Shown: positions 36,691-44,584 of the stretch, in pieces
Position numbering within the stretch: the stretch's first letter is position 1
Layout of the letters: the number at the start of each line of letters is the position of its first letter
NCBI GenBank assembly: GCA_018062205.1
Contig: JAGOSP010000006.1
Location: forward strand, 1-52,282
DNA from: Candidatus Moraniibacteriota bacterium
GTDB taxonomy: Bacteria > Patescibacteriota > Minisyncoccia > Moranbacterales > UBA1568
Length of the DNA: 52,282 nt
Direction of reading: 5' to 3'
The notes under the pieces: generated by a model
What the model was told of the DNA's origin: nothing
Databases searched by the model: none
Seen by the model: only the letters and a program-made list of their open reading frames with translations
Program-made: the position numbers and the translations under genes

Positions 36691-36767
36691 GGGGGCGTAG
36701 CTCAGCTGGTTAGAGCGCCACACTGTCACTGTGGAGGTCGCGGGTCCGAGTCCCGTCGCTCCCGCCA
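36691..36767 (+). tRNA. tRNA-Asp (GTC)
   Basis: 77 nt with encoded CCA. Acceptor GGGGGCG pairs with CGCTCCC. Anticodon stem CCACA/TGTGG with loop CTGTCAC gives GTC. Its 3' 22 bases plus two more are repeated at 36941. Confidence 0.97.
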
Positions 36768-36964
36768 AGTCAAAAATCCCGGTCTTTTGACCGGGATTTT
36801 TGTGTCTTGCGGGAGATGAAGCGAGTGAACTGCTTCACTCGCGTAGGGACGAGGAAAGCGGAGCGATGTTTCGCGAGTACGCGAAACCGCGAGCCGGGGT
36901 CGAGAAATTTCTTGCGCGCCGGTGTAAGAAATATTCGTGACCGAGTCCCGTCGCTCCCGCCAAG
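36746..36964 (+). repeat. 24-bp direct repeat of the tRNA-Asp 3' end flanking a hairpin-rich insert (att-like)
   Basis: The 24 bases from CCGAGTCCCG to CCAAG occur exactly at 36746-36769 and again at 36941-36964. The interval holds a perfect 13-bp terminator hairpin (36772-36801), a 9-bp hairpin (36821-36842, GCGAGTGAA arms) and an 8-bp hairpin (36868-36887, GTTTCGCG arms), plus a weaker one near 36906-36928. A second terminator follows the distal copy. Duplication of a tRNA 3' end is the usual footprint of site-specific integration; no integrase lies inside. Confidence 0.8.
36772..36801. terminator. Bidirectional terminator after tRNA-Asp
   Basis: AAAAATCCCGGTC and its exact complement are separated by TTTT, with T or A runs on both sides. 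Confidence 0.85.
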
Positions 36965-36972
36965 AAATGGAA

Positions 36973-37000
36973 AAGAGGCTCTTGTTGAGTCTCTTTTTTT
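36973..37000 (+). terminator. Terminator after the distal tRNA-Asp 3' copy
   Basis: AAGAGGCTC (36973-36981) pairs with GAGTCTCTT (36987-36995), followed by T. Probably the original terminator of the tRNA cluster before the insertion. Confidence 0.8.
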
Positions 37001-37089: not shown

Positions 37090-37161
37090 GTAAGGTGATC
37101 CATTCAGGTGGACACGCGACATTTCAACGGCCATTTGGCCACAACCCAGAGGAGTTCTTTC

Positions 37162-37800
37162 ATGGCAGCTCATTCCAAGACCCTGTTTTCTTCCCTCGTT
37201 GGTGCCATTCTTGCGGGCGATATGCTTATCGTGCCCATCGGAAAACCGTTTGTTGAGCAGGAGACAGCCTACTTCGCAACGGTGTTGCGCGTCGACAGCG
37301 ATGGCTGGGTCTACCTCTCGTGGTTCTCGGATGACCCTCAGCACACTTCGACAAGGATGGCGCCCGATGGTCCGTTCCGCTGGAGCGATGAACAGTTGGC
37401 GCTGGTCGGCCGCGAGGGCGATGTGCCAATTTGGTATACCAATAACATCTCGTTCGAGCTTCGCGGTGCCCAGGAGGCTGCAGCCAAATACGCTGCCGTT
37501 CCCAGAATTGAGCAACTGCAGCACTCTTTCACGGGAGATGATATGCAGGGTTTCATCACAAGTGATCCGCGCTTCGAGGTGATTGTGGGCATCGGCACCA
37601 ATGGCGAAGCCGGCAATTTGGCCGAGCAGTTGTCGCTAGCACTCAATGTATTGGACGTCAATCATACCAAGGAACAACTGGTTGGCATAGCTTGCTTTCT
37701 GCTCGTCATCCAGAGCAATACCAAAGCGCAGGTGCGGGTACTTCTCGGACAAGGTGGCGCCGCCGCCGATTTGTCCAATGACGGGAACTTGCCTCACTAG
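37162..37800 (+). CDS. Orphan hypothetical protein with strong SD
   Basis: The 212-residue soluble protein (MAAHSKTLFSSLVGAILAGD...) matches no family I recognise. The start is fixed by GAGGAG at 37149-37154, seven bases before the ATG. Base composition is visibly richer in G+C than the housekeeping genes. The gene forms a closed unit with its own promoter (37061) and terminator (37836). It sits directly downstream of the tRNA-Asp insertion. The middle (ITSDPRFEVIVGIGTNGEAG) and C-terminal part (KEQLVGIACFLLVIQSNTKAQ) look globular. Possibly acquired. Confidence 0.75.
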   Translation: MAAHSKTLFSSLVGAILAGDMLIVPIGKPFVEQETAYFATVLRVDSDGWVYLSWFSDDPQHTSTRMAPDGPFRWSDEQLALVGREGDVPIWYTNNISFELRGAQEAAAKYAAVPRIEQLQHSFTGDDMQGFITSDPRFEVIVGIGTNGEAGNLAEQLSLALNVLDVNHTKEQLVGIACFLLVIQSNTKAQVRVLLGQGGAAADLSNDGNLPH

Positions 37801-37835
37801 AGGAGACACGTCTACTGCGGATTTCCGCGATTAAT

Positions 37836-37874
37836 GGCTACTTGGTTTCGACCCGGTAGCCGTTTTCTTTTTTT
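37836..37874 (+). terminator. Terminator of the 37162 gene
   Basis: GGCTAC (37836-37841) pairs with GTAGCC (37856-37861), with inner GG/CC pairs, then a T-rich tract. Confidence 0.8.
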
Positions 37875-38059
37875 GAGCCTGTCAGAATTTTTTACCCGTT
37901 CGCTCCGGAAATAATTAAGAAGACGTGCTGTTTTCTCAAAATTTTGAAATGAAGATAAAAAAACAGGCAATTATGGTTGAAAACATTTTGTATTAGAAAA
38001 ATAAAGTGATATAGTATATAGTGTGTTTGAGATAAGTAAGATAAAATAATAAATAAAAA

Positions 38060-38563
38060 ATGAGTATGGAGATCATAAAAAGTACAGGGGTAACCAAAGA
38101 TGTGAAGATTCTTATTGCTATTTTAGTGGTGATTTTTTTCTTTAGTGCCGGTGTTCTTCGGTGGTTTAGCATGGACAGTGTCCCTGATGATTCAGAAACT
38201 GTTCTTACACAGCAACCAATGGAAGAGAAAGATATGGTTGCTGCTGATCCAAACAATCCTCCTGAACCAATGGAAGAGAAAGATATGGTTGCTGCTGATC
38301 CAAACAAGGTGATCCCTATGGCGAAGTCAGTCACACTTGACGAAGTGATGCAGCACAAGAGCTCGGCAGATTGTCATACCATTATCCGCGGTGGCGTGTA
38401 TAATATTTCTTCATTTATCGAACAGCATCCAGATGGGAAGATGAATGTCGAAAATACCTGCGGTATGGATTCGACCAAATTATTTGAAGGGCAGTATGGC
38501 GGTATGCTAGATAAGGAAGAGCAACTCAAAGGTCTTTTTGTTGGAATTTTTATGAAGCAGTAA
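38060..38563 (+). CDS. Membrane-anchored cytochrome b5-like domain protein
   Basis: The 167-residue protein has one N-terminal TM helix (about residues 15-37), a linker with a 17-residue tandem repeat (PMEEKDMVAADPN core), and a C-terminal cytochrome b5-like domain (about 105-165). The domain shows TLDEVMQHKSSADCHTIIRG, VYNISSFIEQHPDGK with the first heme-ligand His, and FEGQYGG where the second ligand His of classical b5 is missing. Two Cys (DCHTI and NTCGM) could form a bond instead. The domain would face the cell exterior. Whether it binds heme is uncertain. Confidence 0.75.
   Translation: MSMEIIKSTGVTKDVKILIAILVVIFFFSAGVLRWFSMDSVPDDSETVLTQQPMEEKDMVAADPNNPPEPMEEKDMVAADPNKVIPMAKSVTLDEVMQHKSSADCHTIIRGGVYNISSFIEQHPDGKMNVENTCGMDSTKLFEGQYGGMLDKEEQLKGLFVGIFMKQ
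38214..38307 (+). repeat. Tandem 51-bp repeat in the b5-like gene linker
   Basis: A 43-base stretch (38214-38256) recurs exactly at 38265-38307, a period of 51 bases or 17 codons. The identity at DNA level indicates a recent in-frame duplication. Confidence 0.9.
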
Positions 38564-39031
38564 GATTCGCTGCTGATTCGCCCAATTTTCCACTAGGGAG
38601 ATTTGTATCGGTTTTGGTTTTAGAAGAAACGTTTCGTATGTTTTTCCTCGTAAAACCGTATTGATTCTGATCGTGTTTTTCGTAATCCATTGCGTCCAGA
38701 TTTCTTCTGTAGAGATTCCTTCTTCTGATTGTAGGGCTGTTAGTCGAAGCTCTTGTTTGGTGATTCGTGATTACTTCAATTAGAAAGAATTTTTCATCTC
38801 GGAAACAAGAACGATACTTGTTTCCGAGGGTAGATCTTTAAGCATCTTTTCTTAAATTGAGATGCTCTTCTTCTCGATATTGTTTCTGAATTTCTTAGGA
38901 TGCCAGCACTTTTTTTGTTGAGGAGATGATTCTTTTTGATTGGGTGACACCCAAGCTAAGCCATCAGAGTGAGTCTGAAATTTCTGGCACGTCTCCAAAA
39001 GATGCCCTTGACAGGCGAATTTAAATCGGGC
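38564..39031. other. Intergenic region with two strong hairpins and no clear gene
   Basis: About 470 bases. A perfect 12-bp hairpin (CTCGGAAACAAG arms, 38798-38809 with 38817-38828) is followed by a 7-bp hairpin (AGCATCT arms, 38841-38866). Minus-strand open frames with protein-like composition exist on both sides of these hairpins (for example around 38600-38770 and 38852-39060) but match nothing known and lack convincing starts. They could be remnants of a decayed element. Confidence 0.5.
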
Positions 39032-39060
39032 TTGACAACTTCTGTGTTTAGATGAAGAAT
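39032..39060 (+). promoter_or_regulatory. Promoter of the orphan gene at 39114
   Basis: TTGACA (39032-39037), 17-base spacer, AAGAAT (39055-39060). A second TTGACA lies at 39008. Confidence 0.6.
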
Positions 39061-39113
39061 AGGTGTCAAGCAGGTGGGTAGTCCTTTTTTTGTATGAAAA
39101 TGAGGAGAGAATC

Positions 39114-39641
39114 ATGGAACCCGTTCGTAGTACTGTCAGGCGTTCTCCACGTTTGACAGAAGTAAGATTGCTCGGCACGCTGTGCCGGTTTTGCCCTGAA
39201 GAAGGGGCGATGACGGCAAGTTTAATCCATGAGCGCGAAGAGGTATTCCGCGCCGTGGGTTTGCTGTGCATGCTCTATCGGTTTCAGGATAGGGGTATTC
39301 ACCAGCAGGCCAGAGCAAGAGATCCTGAACTCAGGATGACATTTGCTGAGCGCGAAGAATTCTGGATCGCTCAGGGTGGTCCGGCAAAGTTTTTTGCTCG
39401 GGTCGATTCGGCTCTCCAGAGGCATTATCCGGAGATTTTTGATCCGGAGCTGCTGCAGGCTGCCTGGGAGTTTTTTCAGATCCTGGCCACAGGGGTGCAT
39501 ATCGCCTATCTGGCTAGGGTGACAGGTCGTACTCCCGTACATGCGGAGTATCTCAACTCTGATCTGACGGCCTGGTACACTCGGTTGGCGCAACGCTTTG
39601 AACCACTTCGGCCACTTCCGAAGCAAAAAACACTCCATTGA
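39114..39641 (+). CDS. Orphan hypothetical protein with strong SD
   Basis: The 175-residue, arginine-rich, probably helical soluble protein (MEPVRSTVRRSPRLTEVRLL...) is not recognised. GAGGAG at 39102-39107 fixes the ATG at 39114 with a six-base gap. The gene is a complete unit with its own promoter and a long hairpin terminator. It looks richer in G+C than its neighbours. A frame upstream (from 39063) is not supported by the SD. Confidence 0.72.
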   Translation: MEPVRSTVRRSPRLTEVRLLGTLCRFCPEEGAMTASLIHEREEVFRAVGLLCMLYRFQDRGIHQQARARDPELRMTFAEREEFWIAQGGPAKFFARVDSALQRHYPEIFDPELLQAAWEFFQILATGVHIAYLARVTGRTPVHAEYLNSDLTAWYTRLAQRFEPLRPLPKQKTLH

Positions 39642-39669
39642 GTGCTGAAAGCAAAGCAGCGCCTTGTTG

Positions 39670-39721
39670 GTGCGGCGGGGAATGTCTTCGGACTTCTACC
39701 CTGACCGCACTTTGTTTTTTT
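39670..39721 (+). terminator. Terminator of the 39114 gene
   Basis: GTGCGG (39670-39675) pairs with CCGCAC (39705-39710), with inner pairing around GTCTTCGGAC, then a T-rich tract. Confidence 0.8.
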
Positions 39722-39734
39722 CTCTCGTATTATT

Positions 39735-40283
39735 ATGACATCTCTACCAGAAAAATTTCTCCTGCATACCTGTTGTGCGCCGTGCGGTATTACGGTGATT
39801 GATGAACTTCGTTTGAAATTTGATTTGAGTGTACTGTTTTTTAATCCGAATATTTATCCAGAAGAAGAATATATAAAACGGAAATCCGAAGTTATCCGTG
39901 TGTGTCGTGAGTGGTCAGTGTCCATGATTGATATGGATTATACGCCGGAAGAATGGGATGCGCGTGTGAGAGGGTTAGAGCAAGAGCCCGAGCAAGGGAA
40001 ACGTTGCTTTACCTGTATCGGCATGCGTCTTGATCGGTCGGCACGTGAAGCCCAAAGGCGAGGATTTCATATTTTTGGAACAACACTAACGATGGGAAGT
40101 CGGAAAAGTGCCAAGGTTATCTTTCCAGTCGGCGAGGCAGTTGCCAAGCGGTATGGTCTGACTTTTTATGCAGAGGACTGGAAGAAGAAAGGTCGCGAAA
40201 CCATAGCAAGGCAGATGGTGAAGGAGCGTGGTATTTATCGACAGAATTATTGCGGTTGTCGCTATTCGATTCGTGAAAAATGA
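39735..40283 (+). CDS. queH: Epoxyqueuosine reductase QueH
   Basis: The 182-residue enzyme performs the last step of queuosine synthesis in tRNA, reducing epoxyqueuosine. It is the QueH type (DUF208), unrelated to QueG. Motifs: LLHTCCAPCG, FFNPNIYPEEEY, EQGKRCFTCIGMRLD and YRQNYCGCRYS, providing the conserved Cys for an iron-sulfur cluster and metal site. Length is normal. No queuine synthesis genes are seen, so the organism may salvage queuine or its precursor. No SD. Confidence 0.94.
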   Translation: MTSLPEKFLLHTCCAPCGITVIDELRLKFDLSVLFFNPNIYPEEEYIKRKSEVIRVCREWSVSMIDMDYTPEEWDARVRGLEQEPEQGKRCFTCIGMRLDRSAREAQRRGFHIFGTTLTMGSRKSAKVIFPVGEAVAKRYGLTFYAEDWKKKGRETIARQMVKERGIYRQNYCGCRYSIREK

Positions 40284-40308
40284 AAAAAGAGCTTGAGTTA
40301 AGAGAAGC

Positions 40309-40833
40309 TTATTCTGAATGATGACGTTTCATATCTTGGATTTCTTGGAGGAGCGCTTGAAGTGAATTTTCGATACGATCGATGTGCTTTAGACTTTCCA
40401 GTTGTTCGGCGGCATCTTCTCGGTCATCTTTTTCTATTTCTTCACTTAATTCTTCAACGTCTTCAGAAATTTCTTCAACGTCTTCGCTAATTTCTTTGAC
40501 ATCTCCCTGAATGGTATCGATGTCTTTTGATATTTCTTCAACATCTTCACCAATCCCATCAATATTTTCACTCAATTCTTCAACATCTTCACTGACTTCC
40601 TCAATTTGTTTTGCATGTTGATTGACTGTCATTTGAATAAAGATAGCCAGATAAATAGCCTCAAGCGAAACTAGTGTCGTGAGGATGAGGAGTATTTGGT
40701 CGAGAGAAAATCCAAAGAATGCCAGACAGAAAATAGCGATGAAGAAAATCGTGTGGATTACAAGAGAAGGTGGTGATCCGATATATTGCGAGGTACGGAG
40801 AGCGATCGTTTCGAGTGGGGGAATAGTTTTCAT
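40309..40833 (-). CDS. DUF1003-like membrane protein with long coiled coil
   Basis: The 174-residue protein has two TM helices (about residues 23-65) that resemble DUF1003 (SQYIGSPPSLVIH, then LVSLEAIYLAIFIQMTVNQ). A very regular, acidic coiled coil follows (about 70-160), built from seven-residue units such as EDVEEIS and EDVEELS. The helices would anchor the coiled coil on the inner face of the membrane. The repeat probably grew by duplication. Function is unknown. It is convergent with queH, and the gap holds no clear terminator. Confidence 0.72.
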   Translation of the reverse strand: MKTIPPLETIALRTSQYIGSPPSLVIHTIFFIAIFCLAFFGFSLDQILLILTTLVSLEAIYLAIFIQMTVNQHAKQIEEVSEDVEELSENIDGIGEDVEEISKDIDTIQGDVKEISEDVEEISEDVEELSEEIEKDDREDAAEQLESLKHIDRIENSLQALLQEIQDMKRHHSE

Positions 40834-40896
40834 ACAATGAAAGATAAAAATAAACGGATGAATACTTTGGGGTTACTCTAAATATTGTAACTTCGG

Positions 40897-41047
40897 AAAG
40901 CAAAAAGCCCTCAATGCGGAGGAGTGGCTGAATCCCTGAAAATGAGTAACGGAAAAAATTTTACATTTTTCCCGGAAATAATCCAGGTGGGTTCCAGTTA
41001 GGAGTTCGAAAACCCCATCGCTTCTCGTTCTGAAGGCTTTTCGCTTT
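40897..41047. other. Structured intergenic element closed by a 17-position inverted repeat
   Basis: AAAGCAAAAAGCCCTCA (40897-40913) is complementary at 15 of 17 positions to 41031-41047. Inside is another A/T-rich hairpin (around 40950-40973). The interior begins like a class II tRNA (GGAGGAGTGGCTGA) and has a GTTCGAA T-loop-like stretch, but acceptor and anticodon arms do not form. It may be a decayed tRNA-Ser-like gene or a regulatory RNA between two divergent genes. Confidence 0.5.
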
Positions 41048-41090
41048 TAGTATAGGCTTTTTTTGAGAGAAGCGCTAGAGTAGAGGTAGT

Positions 41091-41594
41091 ATGAAAAGAA
41101 TAATTGTTCATGATCGTATGCAAAGCGGATATTGCTATTGGCTTGAGGCGCCGATAGGGAAAGATTTTGATGTGGAATTTCGACCGGATTTAACACCACA
41201 GGAAATGCTCGAGATGGGTATCTTTGGTGGAAAGTATCTGACAGATTGCCAGACAGAGTTTCCTGCAACATGGTTTGTTCAGGCAAAGCTTTCTCCAGAG
41301 AAAAAGGATATTTCACTGAATTATTTTGGTGTTGATGCGAGTCAGTCGCTTGCGGTATGGCAAGAAAAGGGATGGATTTTCCCAGATGATCCGCGGGGGT
41401 GGTTTCAGTGGTATTGTCGTTATTTCCTTGGCCGACGACTTCCCGAAGAAGATAGGCGTCAGATACGAAGATGGAAAATGATGCGCCGACATATTGCACA
41501 AATTGTTCAGAATTGTCGACCGGGAGATTTCTTTTGTCGCCGTCGACAGCGGCAAGCCTTACTCCATTGGGCGTATGATAGTCGGAAGTTTTAG
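41091..41594 (+). CDS. Conserved hypothetical protein
   Basis: The 167-residue soluble protein appears to belong to a widespread family of unknown function with conserved blocks such as FRPDLTPQEMLEMGIFGGKY, PRGWFQWYCRYFLGRR and RRRQRQALLHWAYD. Family recognition is from memory of similar sequences and was not checked. Several aromatic and Arg residues in the last block suggest nucleic acid or nucleotide binding, but this is only a guess. No SD. It is followed by a VOC gene after 37 bases. Confidence 0.75.
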   Translation: MKRIIVHDRMQSGYCYWLEAPIGKDFDVEFRPDLTPQEMLEMGIFGGKYLTDCQTEFPATWFVQAKLSPEKKDISLNYFGVDASQSLAVWQEKGWIFPDDPRGWFQWYCRYFLGRRLPEEDRRQIRRWKMMRRHIAQIVQNCRPGDFFCRRRQRQALLHWAYDSRKF

Positions 41595-41631
41595 GAAGAA
41601 GATGCGGTAATATCTTACAGAGTATAAGCGT

Positions 41632-42069
41632 ATGCAGATCAAAGAACTCGGACATGTCGTTTTGTATGTCACCGATATAACTCGGATGGCAGATTTTTAC
41701 CGAGATACGCTTGGTTTTCATGAAATGAAACGTCAGGCAGGCATGGCGATTTTTTCTTCTACGCGTACGCACCACGAATTATTGCTCATTGAAATTGGTG
41801 GCGTGCCTCGTGATCATCGAGCACCAGAACCAGGGCTTTATCACATTGGATTCAAAATTGGAGAGAGTGCGGAAGAGTTGAAGTCGGCATACCAGGAATT
41901 ATTGATGAAGCAGGTGAAGATTGTTGGGACAGCTGATCATTCCGTGACGCACAGCCTCTATGTGCTTGATCCGGACGGAAATGAACTTGAATTGTACGCT
42001 GATGTGTCGGATGAATGGAAGCAGAATCCAGAAGCCGTTCTTCGCCCCACCAAACGCCTCACCTTTTAG
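41632..42069 (+). CDS. VOC (glyoxalase/dioxygenase-like) family protein
   Basis: The 145-residue protein forms one vicinal oxygen chelate domain of two beta-alpha-beta-beta-beta modules. Putative metal ligands are the His in ELGHVVLYV, the His in LYHIGFKI and the Glu in GNELELYAD. DPDGNELELY is the standard C-terminal motif. The N-terminal ADFYRDTLGF matches glyoxalase and catechol 2,3-dioxygenase-like members. Substrate unknown. No SD. Confidence 0.9.
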   Translation: MQIKELGHVVLYVTDITRMADFYRDTLGFHEMKRQAGMAIFSSTRTHHELLLIEIGGVPRDHRAPEPGLYHIGFKIGESAEELKSAYQELLMKQVKIVGTADHSVTHSLYVLDPDGNELELYADVSDEWKQNPEAVLRPTKRLTF

Positions 42070-42079
42070 GTATCAGTCG

Positions 42080-42088
42080 TGGTATACT
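42080..42088 (+). promoter_or_regulatory. Extended -10 box before the DUF5671 gene
   Basis: TGGTATACT, 71 bases before the ATG at 42160. No recognisable -35. Confidence 0.5.
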
Positions 42089-42159
42089 CTGGGAAAAGTA
42101 TATCAAGAGTTAGAATATTTTCTTTTGTATCAGGACATAAAAAATAAGACTGTATATCT

Positions 42160-43311
42160 ATGGAAAGACCATCACTTGGAGGATATGTAGCGGATCGGAT
42201 AAAGTCGGGTGCGCGGAAGTCAGAAATCAAGGAAGAATTATTGGCAGTGGGCTGGTCCGATGAGGAAACAGACGCCGCCTATCGGGAGGGAGTCATTGCT
42301 CTCGGCGTACCGCTGCCAAGCGCGGGGACTCGTCCTACTCTGACGCGTAAGTCCTCGACGGTTGATATCATTATTCATCTCTTCTCTTTCATTCTGCTCG
42401 GTATTGTGGCCACCGCTTTTGGGACGCTCCTTTTTGGTATCATCGAGCAGACTTTTCCTGATGCGCTAGCCAGCTCTTCTCCTCTCGGTGTATCGGGAGC
42501 GATGGACAGTATTCACTATGCTATCGCGGCACTCTTGATTGGGTTTCCACTGTATGTGGGCGCTCTGCGTATTTGGTTTCGCAAATTCCGAGAGGATGAG
42601 GGACGGACGGAATCGCGCCTTTCGCAGTGGCTCACCTATCTGGTGCTCCTCATTGCCTCGGTGACAATCGTTGGGGATCTTATCGCGATAGTCTATACCT
42701 TTCTTCAGGGAGAAATCACGTGGCGATTTTTCCTGAAAGCGCTGACTATCTCGGGTATCGCCGGTGTCATTTTCGGCTTCTACTATTTTGAGCGCAAGAA
42801 GATACAGTATCATCAGGATATTGCCCGCAAGACATTTCAATCTTTTGGATGGTCGGTAGCGGGTGTGGTGTGCGTCAGTATTGTTTTGGGTTTTTTCGTG
42901 GGAGGATCGCCTGAGACAGCCCGCAAGCAGGGATTTGATATCAAGCGAGCGAATGATCTTTCGATGCTGGCAGGGTGTGTTCAGGGGTACGCGAGTGACT
43001 TGGGGACTCTGCCGACTTCGATGGATGTACTCAAGCGTTCCAGTGCGTACGCATATTGTTCAGGCTTCATGCAGGATCCAGAAACAGGGAAGATGTATGA
43101 GTACCGAGTCTTAGAGACATCGCTGACGCAGGGAGTGGGTCGTGTCGGATCATTTGAACTGTGCGCGGATTTTGCATTACCATCTGTTAAGACAACCGCG
43201 ACTGGTTATCAGCAAGAGGATTTAATCTGGAATGAGCATGCTGCTGGTCGTGATTGTGAGACGGTGACCACTCAGCTTGGAACGATTGCGCCGACTGTAC
43301 CGATGAAATAA
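42160..43311 (+). CDS. DUF5671-like multi-helix membrane protein with C-terminal extracytoplasmic domain
   Basis: The 383-residue protein starts with a SHOCT-like or helical segment (YVADRIKSGARKSEIKEELL). A membrane block of five TM helices (about residues 70-260) follows, whose first part (DIIIHLFSFILLGIVATAFG) is typical of DUF5671. After the last TM, residues 265-383 are soluble and begin KRANDLSMLAGCVQGYASDLG, resembling the pseudopilin-type pattern of an N-terminal helix. Paired Cys residues could form disulfides outside the cell. Function unknown; this arrangement is common in candidate phyla radiation genomes. Confidence 0.72.
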   Translation: MERPSLGGYVADRIKSGARKSEIKEELLAVGWSDEETDAAYREGVIALGVPLPSAGTRPTLTRKSSTVDIIIHLFSFILLGIVATAFGTLLFGIIEQTFPDALASSSPLGVSGAMDSIHYAIAALLIGFPLYVGALRIWFRKFREDEGRTESRLSQWLTYLVLLIASVTIVGDLIAIVYTFLQGEITWRFFLKALTISGIAGVIFGFYYFERKKIQYHQDIARKTFQSFGWSVAGVVCVSIVLGFFVGGSPETARKQGFDIKRANDLSMLAGCVQGYASDLGTLPTSMDVLKRSSAYAYCSGFMQDPETGKMYEYRVLETSLTQGVGRVGSFELCADFALPSVKTTATGYQQEDLIWNEHAAGRDCETVTTQLGTIAPTVPMK

Positions 43312-43321
43312 TGAGGTGATT

Positions 43322-44584
43322 ATGACTGCTCAGAAACAACAGATTAAATGTCCCGAATGCGGATCATCGATTTCGATTGATGATGTGTTAACGCATCAGA
43401 TTTCGGAACAAGTACGGGAGGAAATGCAAAAAGAACAACTTGGAAAAGAAGAAGCATTGTCTCATCAACAGCAAGAGCTTGATGCGGAACGAATGAGATT
43501 GGCAGAGGTGGCTCGGGATGCGGCGGCTACTATTGAAAAAACTGTCGCAGAGAAGATAGCAGGGGAAAGAACGGCACTTCTTCAGCAGGCGAAAGAGGCA
43601 GTCGAAAAGGAAAATGAAGGAGAAAAAAAGATGCTCGAAGAAGCGCTGGCGGAAAAGAGTGCTCGTTTGCGTGAGGCGAATGAGAAGGAGCTGGAGATGC
43701 GGAAAGAGCGCAATAGACTCGAAGAAGAGCGGCAAAATTTTGAACTTGAGAAGCAACGACAGCTTGATGCCGAGCGAGAGAAGATTAGTGAAGAAGCGAG
43801 CAAGAAGGCGACGGAAGAAACTCGTTTTGTCATCGCGCAGTTGCAAAAACAACTTTCGGATGCGACAAAAGCAAAGGATGATTTGGCACGTAAGCTGGAA
43901 CAGGGTTCACAACAGACTCAGGGTGAAGTGCTCGAGCTTGAATTGGAAACATCCTTGAAAACGGAATTTCTTCAGGATGCTATTATACCGGTTCCCAAAG
44001 GAGTGAAGGGCGCTGATATTCTCCAGCAGGTGCACGATCGATCTGGTCGGCTATGTGGACAGATTGTTTGGGAATCAAAGAATACTAAAGTTTGGAGCGA
44101 AGGCTGGATTCAGAAGCTAAAGGAAGATCAGCGGTTGGTGAAAGCTGACATTGCAGTCTTGGTTTCCTCAGTATTACCACAAGGAGTATCTGGATTTGTA
44201 CTCCGAGATGGTGTCTGGGTATGCGAGGTGCACATGGCACTGGCCCTCGCGAGTGCTCTTCGTATTACGCTCGAATCAGTCACACGAGAAAAAAACATGT
44301 CGGTAGGCAAGAATGAAAAGATGGAAGTGCTCTACGCGTATTTGACGGGTGTTGAATTCAAACAGCGAGTTGAGGCAATTGTCGAAGCATTTACGGGTAT
44401 GAGTGATGGTCTTCGCAAAGAGCGGTTGGCGTACGAGAAATTATGGGCAGAACGAGAAAAGCAAATTAGCAAAGTTATTACCAATACGGTCGGTATGTAT
44501 GGCGATCTGAGCGGGCATGTCACACTTCCAGAAATCAAGGCGCTTGAGCTTGGTGGTGGCACCGAGCCAGACCGATTGCTCTAA
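43322..44584 (+). CDS. DUF2130 coiled-coil protein with N-terminal zinc finger
   Basis: The protein of about 420 residues begins with a two-Cys knuckle (IKCPECGSSI). A long Glu/Lys-rich coiled coil (about residues 25-200) and the C-terminal DUF2130 domain follow (LELETSLKTEFLQDAIIPVPKG, then QIVWESKNTKVWSEGWIQKL). The E-x-K in WESKNTK and surrounding acidic residues recall PD-(D/E)XK nuclease folds, an inferred link. ATG 43322 has GAGGTG just upstream; GTG 43316 is the alternative. Ten bases separate it from the DUF5671 gene, so they likely share a transcript. Confidence 0.85.
   Translation: MTAQKQQIKCPECGSSISIDDVLTHQISEQVREEMQKEQLGKEEALSHQQQELDAERMRLAEVARDAAATIEKTVAEKIAGERTALLQQAKEAVEKENEGEKKMLEEALAEKSARLREANEKELEMRKERNRLEEERQNFELEKQRQLDAEREKISEEASKKATEETRFVIAQLQKQLSDATKAKDDLARKLEQGSQQTQGEVLELELETSLKTEFLQDAIIPVPKGVKGADILQQVHDRSGRLCGQIVWESKNTKVWSEGWIQKLKEDQRLVKADIAVLVSSVLPQGVSGFVLRDGVWVCEVHMALALASALRITLESVTREKNMSVGKNEKMEVLYAYLTGVEFKQRVEAIVEAFTGMSDGLRKERLAYEKLWAEREKQISKVITNTVGMYGDLSGHVTLPEIKALELGGGTEPDRLL

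Follow-up and report, generated by a model that had tools for sequence, protein, structure and literature searches.

The tRNA-Asp gene considered here is followed by a second copy of its own 3' end, and the question is what kind of sequence lies between the two copies and how it came to be there. The locus was studied in the window, a stretch of 52,282 nucleotides from a genome (G000) of 966 kb, whose named relatives belong to the Moraniibacteriota and other Patescibacteria. The tRNA-Asp(gtc) gene scores 66.5 bits with the Rfam tRNA model. The repeat, CCGAGTCCCGTCGCTCCCGCCAAG, is direct and exact; it consists of the last 22 bases of the gene and the two nucleotides beyond, and the copies are spaced by 195 bp. 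The 19-bp core of the repeat has only two sites in the window at three or fewer mismatches, the shuffled expectation being 0.00.

Table 1. Features of the tRNA-Asp locus, in window coordinates
Feature	Position	Strand	Basis
tRNA-Asp (gtc), target gene, intact	36691..36767	+	ARAGORN, Rfam
Proximal 24-bp repeat copy, starting in the T-loop and extending 2 nt beyond the tRNA	36746..36769	+	
Terminator-like perfect 14-bp hairpin with T-run, between tRNA and element core	36771..36802	+	sequence
CTTGCGGGAG, complementary, save for one bulge, to CTCCCGCCAAG (acceptor strand, 3' side) in both repeat copies	36806..36815	+	sequence, fold
H1 hairpin GCGAGTGAA-CTGC-TTCACTCGC; family consensus loop AACTGCTT	36821..36842	+	R1 model positions
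Guide region GGGAC-GAGGAAAG	36846..36858	+	fold, family comparison
H2, conserved hairpin domain GCGGAGCGATG..CCGCGAGCC	36857..36895	+	covariation
H3, conserved hairpin GGTCGAG..TATTCGTGACC, its end being the insertion junction	36898..36942	+	covariation
Distal copy of the tRNA-Asp 3' end	36941..36964	+	
Terminator-like hairpin behind the distal copy	about 36971..36999	+	sequence, fold

The preliminary description of this DNA had reported the exact repeat and, between its copies, an insert that has no integrase, holds its own terminator and is packed with perfect hairpins. The repeat, the terminator and the lack of an integrase gene in the insert were all confirmed. The insert together with the downstream terminator folds at -122 kcal/mol, the mean for shuffled sequences being -75.6 (z = -9.6, reached by 0 of 200 shuffles), and so the dense packing is real, but not all the hairpins are perfect: H2 and H3 contain conserved internal loops and bulges, and H3 has a conserved G.U pair, a mismatch and a bulged A. 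The hairpin behind the distal copy had been called the old terminator; a terminator-like hairpin does stand there, and it is presumed to be the original one of tRNA-Asp. The window copy contains no gene, and its own terminator separates the tRNA from the element core. The genes that follow had been described as accessory orphans. The genes within 37108-44581 do include an orphan, but the same region encodes a Cyt-b5 protein, QueH, a glyoxalase and a DUF2130 protein, which are not orphans. There is no unit between these genes and no further unit copy among the downstream genes of the window, and a tie between them and the insert is unproven.

The insert belongs to a family. When it was used as a query against 54 relatives, it was found in 23 genomes, almost all from the same taxonomic family, behind many tRNA genes, and many of these copies are flanked by tRNA 3' repeats, as the preliminary description would have it for a mobile element. 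A covariance model retrieved it in 25 of the 28 genomes of the family (up to 10 copies each), in 49 of 128 genomes of the order and in 35 of 286 genomes of a phylum sample, the last count being an undercount due to strict filters and the small number of candidates scored. Positive genomes carry from one to ten copies. The exact core pattern occurs in GTDB genomes on 86 contigs, nearly all from Patescibacteria, with two Elusimicrobia MAGs in addition. On one contig named Elusimicrobia (L277) the 3' end of a tRNA-Arg is repeated around the unit; the units there and on a second contig with that name (L307) reflect transfer or misbinning. Similar architecture at more than 100 independent loci rules out a read-assembly artefact. 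The family had no match in IMG/VR or in phage or plasmid records, and an origin from any of these was rejected; a known RNA family was ruled out by the lack of an Rfam match over the insert core. No description of the family was found in the papers searched on tRNA-associated integrative elements in Patescibacteria. This is apparently a large and undescribed family of structured mobile elements of Patescibacteria, which are tiny bacteria of the parasitic type.

The units are as short as 120-195 bp, with a core of about 130 nt, and have a constant order: H1, the guide, H2, H3 and a copy of the 3' end of the local gene. The common structure, derived from 15 aligned copies, has 43 pairs, including a helix between the guide and the copied tRNA 3' end; the guide region is single-stranded between H1 and H2. 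In the alignment, 95.9% of the cells are paired and 31 of the 43 pairs show double-sided changes; these values were reached by 0 of 500 shuffles, and no slid register approaches the observed pairing. The covariation is in favour of a structured RNA, or else of a single DNA strand in folded form. Moreover, G.U pairs exceed A.C pairs (241:95), hence it is the displayed, tRNA-sense strand that folds.

Several variants of the structure were seen. In two genomes (L116:1690-1900 and L110:1683-1850) a structured insert of about 220 nt (GAGCCCGGCAACAATCCC...GGGATTTTGACGGGCTC), with no Rfam match, replaces H1. At L203:1501-1625 the guide complements the sequence preceding H1 (CTGTTTTATAATAA) instead of the target, producing one long hairpin. 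L018 and L209, situated behind tRNA-Asp in G023 and G014, have a different core, GGACTCGAACAAGAAAAGGGTCGG..., with a similar logic of guide and tRNA 3' copy; this core is apparently that of a second family.

Directly behind a tRNA gene of the same strand lie 124 of 153 copies, and 35 kinds of tRNA are used; the other targets include a tmRNA and the 3' ends of topA (in nine genomes) and rpsI. The tRNA sites fall into two classes, one in the T-loop (GTTC|RA..) and one at the tRNA 3' end (..CAC|AA..). The T-loop, topA and rpsI targets have little in common beyond C|RA, and the remainder is matched by the guide. The distal repeat is at least 17 nt long in 72 of 107 first copies, and in 70 of these 72 it reaches the tRNA end or passes it by 0-69 nt; thus the gene is kept whole. 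At topA, too, the end of the coding sequence is part of what is duplicated. The tRNA genes upstream of the units in L085 and L081 appear to be split by an intron of group I type (GAAGATATAGTCC motif).

The guide, that is, the stretch between H1 and H2, is antisense to the end of the local target gene, and its 8-14 nt span both flanks of the insertion point. It covaries with the tRNA downstream of the junction and upstream of it as well. In 100 T-loop copies, the guide has the complement of the upstream bases C56, Y55 and T54 in 96, 94 and 94% of cases, respectively. Where Y55 is T, the guide has A in 84 copies; where Y55 is C, it has G in ten of ten; there is one T:G combination (Fisher p=1e-12, a value that overstates the number of independent events, as the copies share ancestry). 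The tRNAs with TCC in place of TTC are accompanied by guides with GGA in place of GAA. These upstream bases are absent from the distal copy, which reads ..GACC at the corresponding place. The same is seen at topA, where in nine genomes the guide follows the synonymous differences of the host gene (GGG/GGC, ACA/ACG, AAA/AAG) with one mismatch (L315), and several of the differences so tracked are absent from the distal copy. Hence the guide matches the intact host site across the insertion point, and folding of the guide onto the distal copy only is ruled out. The preliminary description had taken the repeat for the simple mark of classical integrase targeting; this is not supported: the insert is itself conserved and structured, and it carries a guide that fits its target.

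The junction bases R57 and A58 are unpaired in about half of the T-loop copies (type A guides), so that the guide is two-part. The window copy, too, has this weaker type of guide: GGGAC pairs with GTCCC of the 3' strand of the T-stem, in the distal copy and equally in the proximal one, and the GAA/TTC upstream match common in the family is missing. Alternatively, the guide could owe its complementarity to a hairpin formed in cis with the copy upstream, and not to target search.

Comparison of genomes shows that the element is mobile or has been so recently. Empty tRNA-Asp sites are present in G010, which belongs to the same genus as the filled G008, and in G025, G006, G013, G011, G004, G024 and G021. 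The spacer of a tRNA-Met pair is 12-13 nt long and has no unit in the window's genus, and G011 has there a unit with repeats of about 31 nt. Near-identical units of 120 bp occur as two in tandem in G015 and as a single one in G009, with the same flanks, and different units are stacked at one tRNA in L090 and L020. At L102:1501-1603 and downstream, the distal repeat continues through the sequence preceding H1 into H1, as after the loss of a tandem unit. Many copies are located at contig ends. A tree of the cores, based on few columns and weakly supported, clusters by genus (16 changes vs 33 in shuffled data) and in part by target, and it places the topA copies of two different genera as sisters; this pattern implies that retargeting has happened and that targets have also been retained. 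Some copies may be old residents and not new insertions, given the clustering by target in addition to that by genus.

Copies that enclose genes also speak for mobility. Some units stand at the end of longer insertions. One of these, 6.8 kb behind tRNA-Asn (L230), carries genes for MazG, an IMP cyclohydrolase-like protein and a radical SAM protein. A 4.8-kb insertion behind tRNA-Ser (L242) carries a TdeIII restriction endonuclease, a methyltransferase and a pPIWI-associated nuclease, and its distal copy matches at 18 of 18 positions. In two genomes, a GIY-YIG gene (Pfam) lies between tRNA-Ser and the unit. Other cargo comprises a VWA gene (L231), a gene of 308 aa flanked by two units whose 18-nt copies are identical (L237), HlyD/FtsX genes accompanied by an ABC-ATPase-like ORF, and a methyltransferase (L243). 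This layout resembles that of integron cassettes, the tRNA being comparable to the entry site. A pair encoding a MerR-like HTH protein and a DUF4325 (STAS-like) protein was seen beside units in two distant genomes (L232:5176-6278 and L248:7009-8060), and a double unit at tRNA-Asn has an AbiEi/AbiEii toxin-antitoxin pair in its vicinity (L232:6454-7798). The window insert had alternatively been proposed to be the trace of an excised larger element. This is not supported. The insert is itself a conserved unit, of which larger, cargo-bearing versions exist, and hence a minimal cassette without cargo, from an integrative element family widespread in Patescibacteria, is the more fitting description; the idea of a mobile miniature element is supported.

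These elements are probably guide-directed, integron-like cassettes moved in trans by an enzyme. The tRNA-sense strand folds into H1, the guide, H2 and H3; the 5' half of the guide is complementary to the sequence immediately downstream of the insertion point, and the 3' half to the three or four bases immediately upstream. The insertions fall at C|RA, a minimal site, within the tRNA T-loop, or else at another gene 3' end (the tRNA end, tmRNA, topA, rpsI), with duplication of the gene end leaving the gene intact. Units are stacked in tandem at one tRNA and can carry genes, in the manner of integron cassettes with their folded attC-type site. The analysis shows the family and its structure, the guide match on two sides, the repeats, the arrays, the cargo and the empty sites; from there it is an inference that pairing directs the insertion, that a single strand, RNA or ssDNA, is the active form, and that the enzyme acts in trans. 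Counted against the guide-directed reading are the junction mismatches of the type A guides, the missing upstream GAA match of the window copy, the terminator lying between tRNA and core in the window, and the variable length of the repeat (about 6 to 85 nt), which is unlike the work of a simple transposase.

No cognate integrase was seen in or near the element at the loci examined. Tyrosine recombinases (PF00589) are present in 278 of 286 genomes of the phylum sample, including all 35 positive ones, and exactly one such gene is found in the window's genome and in the element-rich genomes G152, G216, G366, G375, G358, G401 and G288. The preliminary description had proposed to look for an integrase elsewhere in the genome; the only tyrosine recombinase there is Xer-like. 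The PF00589 proteins scanned are XerA/XerC/D-like, and the single genes of G216, G366 and G401 are far below the NCBIfam cut-off for the integron integrase IntI. The IS110 DEDD transposase (PF01548) is present in 11 of 286 genomes (2 of 35 positive) and the TnpB-type nuclease (PF07282) in 10 of 286 (0 of 35 positive). The Nop domain (PF01798) was found in 0 of 18 element-carrying genomes, with a model that may miss a diverged Tas Nop. G152, G216 and G281, with six or seven copies each, have neither RVT_1, nor Y1, IS110 or TnpB. Reverse transcriptase, Y1 transposase, TnpB, IS110 and Nop were rejected as obligatory partners, since many genomes rich in elements lack them. For the trans enzyme, the universal, single recombinase of Xer type is no more than a candidate. 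The CTX phage uses XerCD at dif, and by this analogy the host Xer could act on the folded strand, recognition of the T-loop by Xer being hypothetical.

One rival explanation is that of ordinary tRNA islands or CIME-type remnants, with a tyrosine integrase acting in trans on att sites in the T-loop or at the tRNA end; the 3' copy would correspond to the usual block of attL/attR identity, with the guide as no more than an arm of an inverted repeat in att. T-loop and 3'-end targets with gene restoration are typical of tyrosine integrases (Islander, PMC4383910), and tandem stacking, cargo islands and the PF00589 genes of all 35 positive genomes agree with this. We nevertheless regard it as unlikely: the element-rich genomes have a single gene of this kind, Xer-like in those scanned, the T-loop, topA and rpsI targets share too little for it, and a covarying folded structure is not a feature of double-stranded att sites. 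The strong bias to same-strand positions directly behind tRNAs, the structure in the tRNA sense and the ability of the guide to pair with the upstream tRNA in cis would suit a non-mobile RNA of tRNA operons, a 3' trailer regulator or processing signal antisense to its own tRNA. Such an RNA is not expected at topA, rpsI and other protein gene ends, and patchy presence with empty sites, tandem copy-number differences, cargo genes and terminators upstream of the core make it improbable.

Two further explanations depend on specific enzymes. If reverse transcriptase copied a retroelement or a SINE-like RNA, with a variable target-site duplication, this would account for the variable repeat length, the folded RNA-like core and an insertion point abutting the 3' end of the core; such an origin is very improbable, as only 16 of the 35 positive genomes have RVT_1 (103 of 286 overall) and several with six to nine copies lack it. 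In IS608 and REP elements, hairpins are combined with a guide pairing with the flanking sequence, and the present family resembles them in this respect. Mobilisation of an IS200/IS605- or REP-type element by a Y1 transposase through pairing of the guide with the cleavage site has a slimmer chance still, given that Y1_Tnp is found in 16 of 35 positive genomes vs 136 of 286 overall and in none of several element-rich ones, that a guide of this length spans both flanks, and that gene ends are duplicated.

The guide-directed cassettes might tentatively be taken as a new kind of guide-programmed integration, in which folded elements, with a guide pairing on both sides, enter a nearly motif-free C|RA at host gene 3' ends by means of a universal host protein or another recombinase and bring in gene cassettes while the host gene stays unharmed. 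The kind of element may be new, though less so if an ordinary tyrosine integrase turned out to be the enzyme. Should the site be selected by guide pairing, programmable DNA insertion, so far represented by CRISPR-transposons and bridge RNAs, would have one more principle, and this in a bacterial group that is among the largest and the least cultured. Even if the guide does not select the site, this is a phylum-wide cassette system, which can explain the gain of defence and transport genes at tRNA loci in streamlined Patescibacteria. The covariation of guides and host genes makes the targeting directly testable.

None of the known families compared shows its full set of defining features in these elements. 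As in group I introns, where the internal guide sequence pairs with both exons, the guide reads two sides; unlike them, the core has no recognised group I elements, the target is duplicated and removal is unnecessary for gene function. TIGR-Tas systems (PMC12045711), known from CPR bacteria, likewise have short guides beside palindromic stem-loops, but Tas spacers target both strands, whereas the guides considered here match host gene ends, and Nop is lacking. The bridge RNA of IS110 and IS1111 (PMC11208160) is also a structured guide reading both sides of a small target core; the guide of our element is, however, single and contiguous, the gene end is duplicated, and the DEDD transposase is rare in positive genomes. 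With tyrosine-integrase tRNA islands, CIMEs and tycheposons the family shares the T-loop or 3'-end target, the duplicated gene end, restoration and cargo; it differs in having no integrase, in its small size, antisense guide and folded core, and in the use of topA and rpsI ends. Integrons and CALIN (PMC9024848) differ in entry at attI and not at tRNA or gene 3' ends, in a pairing arm that does not vary with the target and in the lack of the H2 domain, and no IntI was found here. They are alike in tandem cassettes with or without an ORF and in arrays situated beside a fixed entry site with no integrase nearby, and the fold of the units is analogous to the attC-type recombination site, which is conserved in structure and not in sequence.
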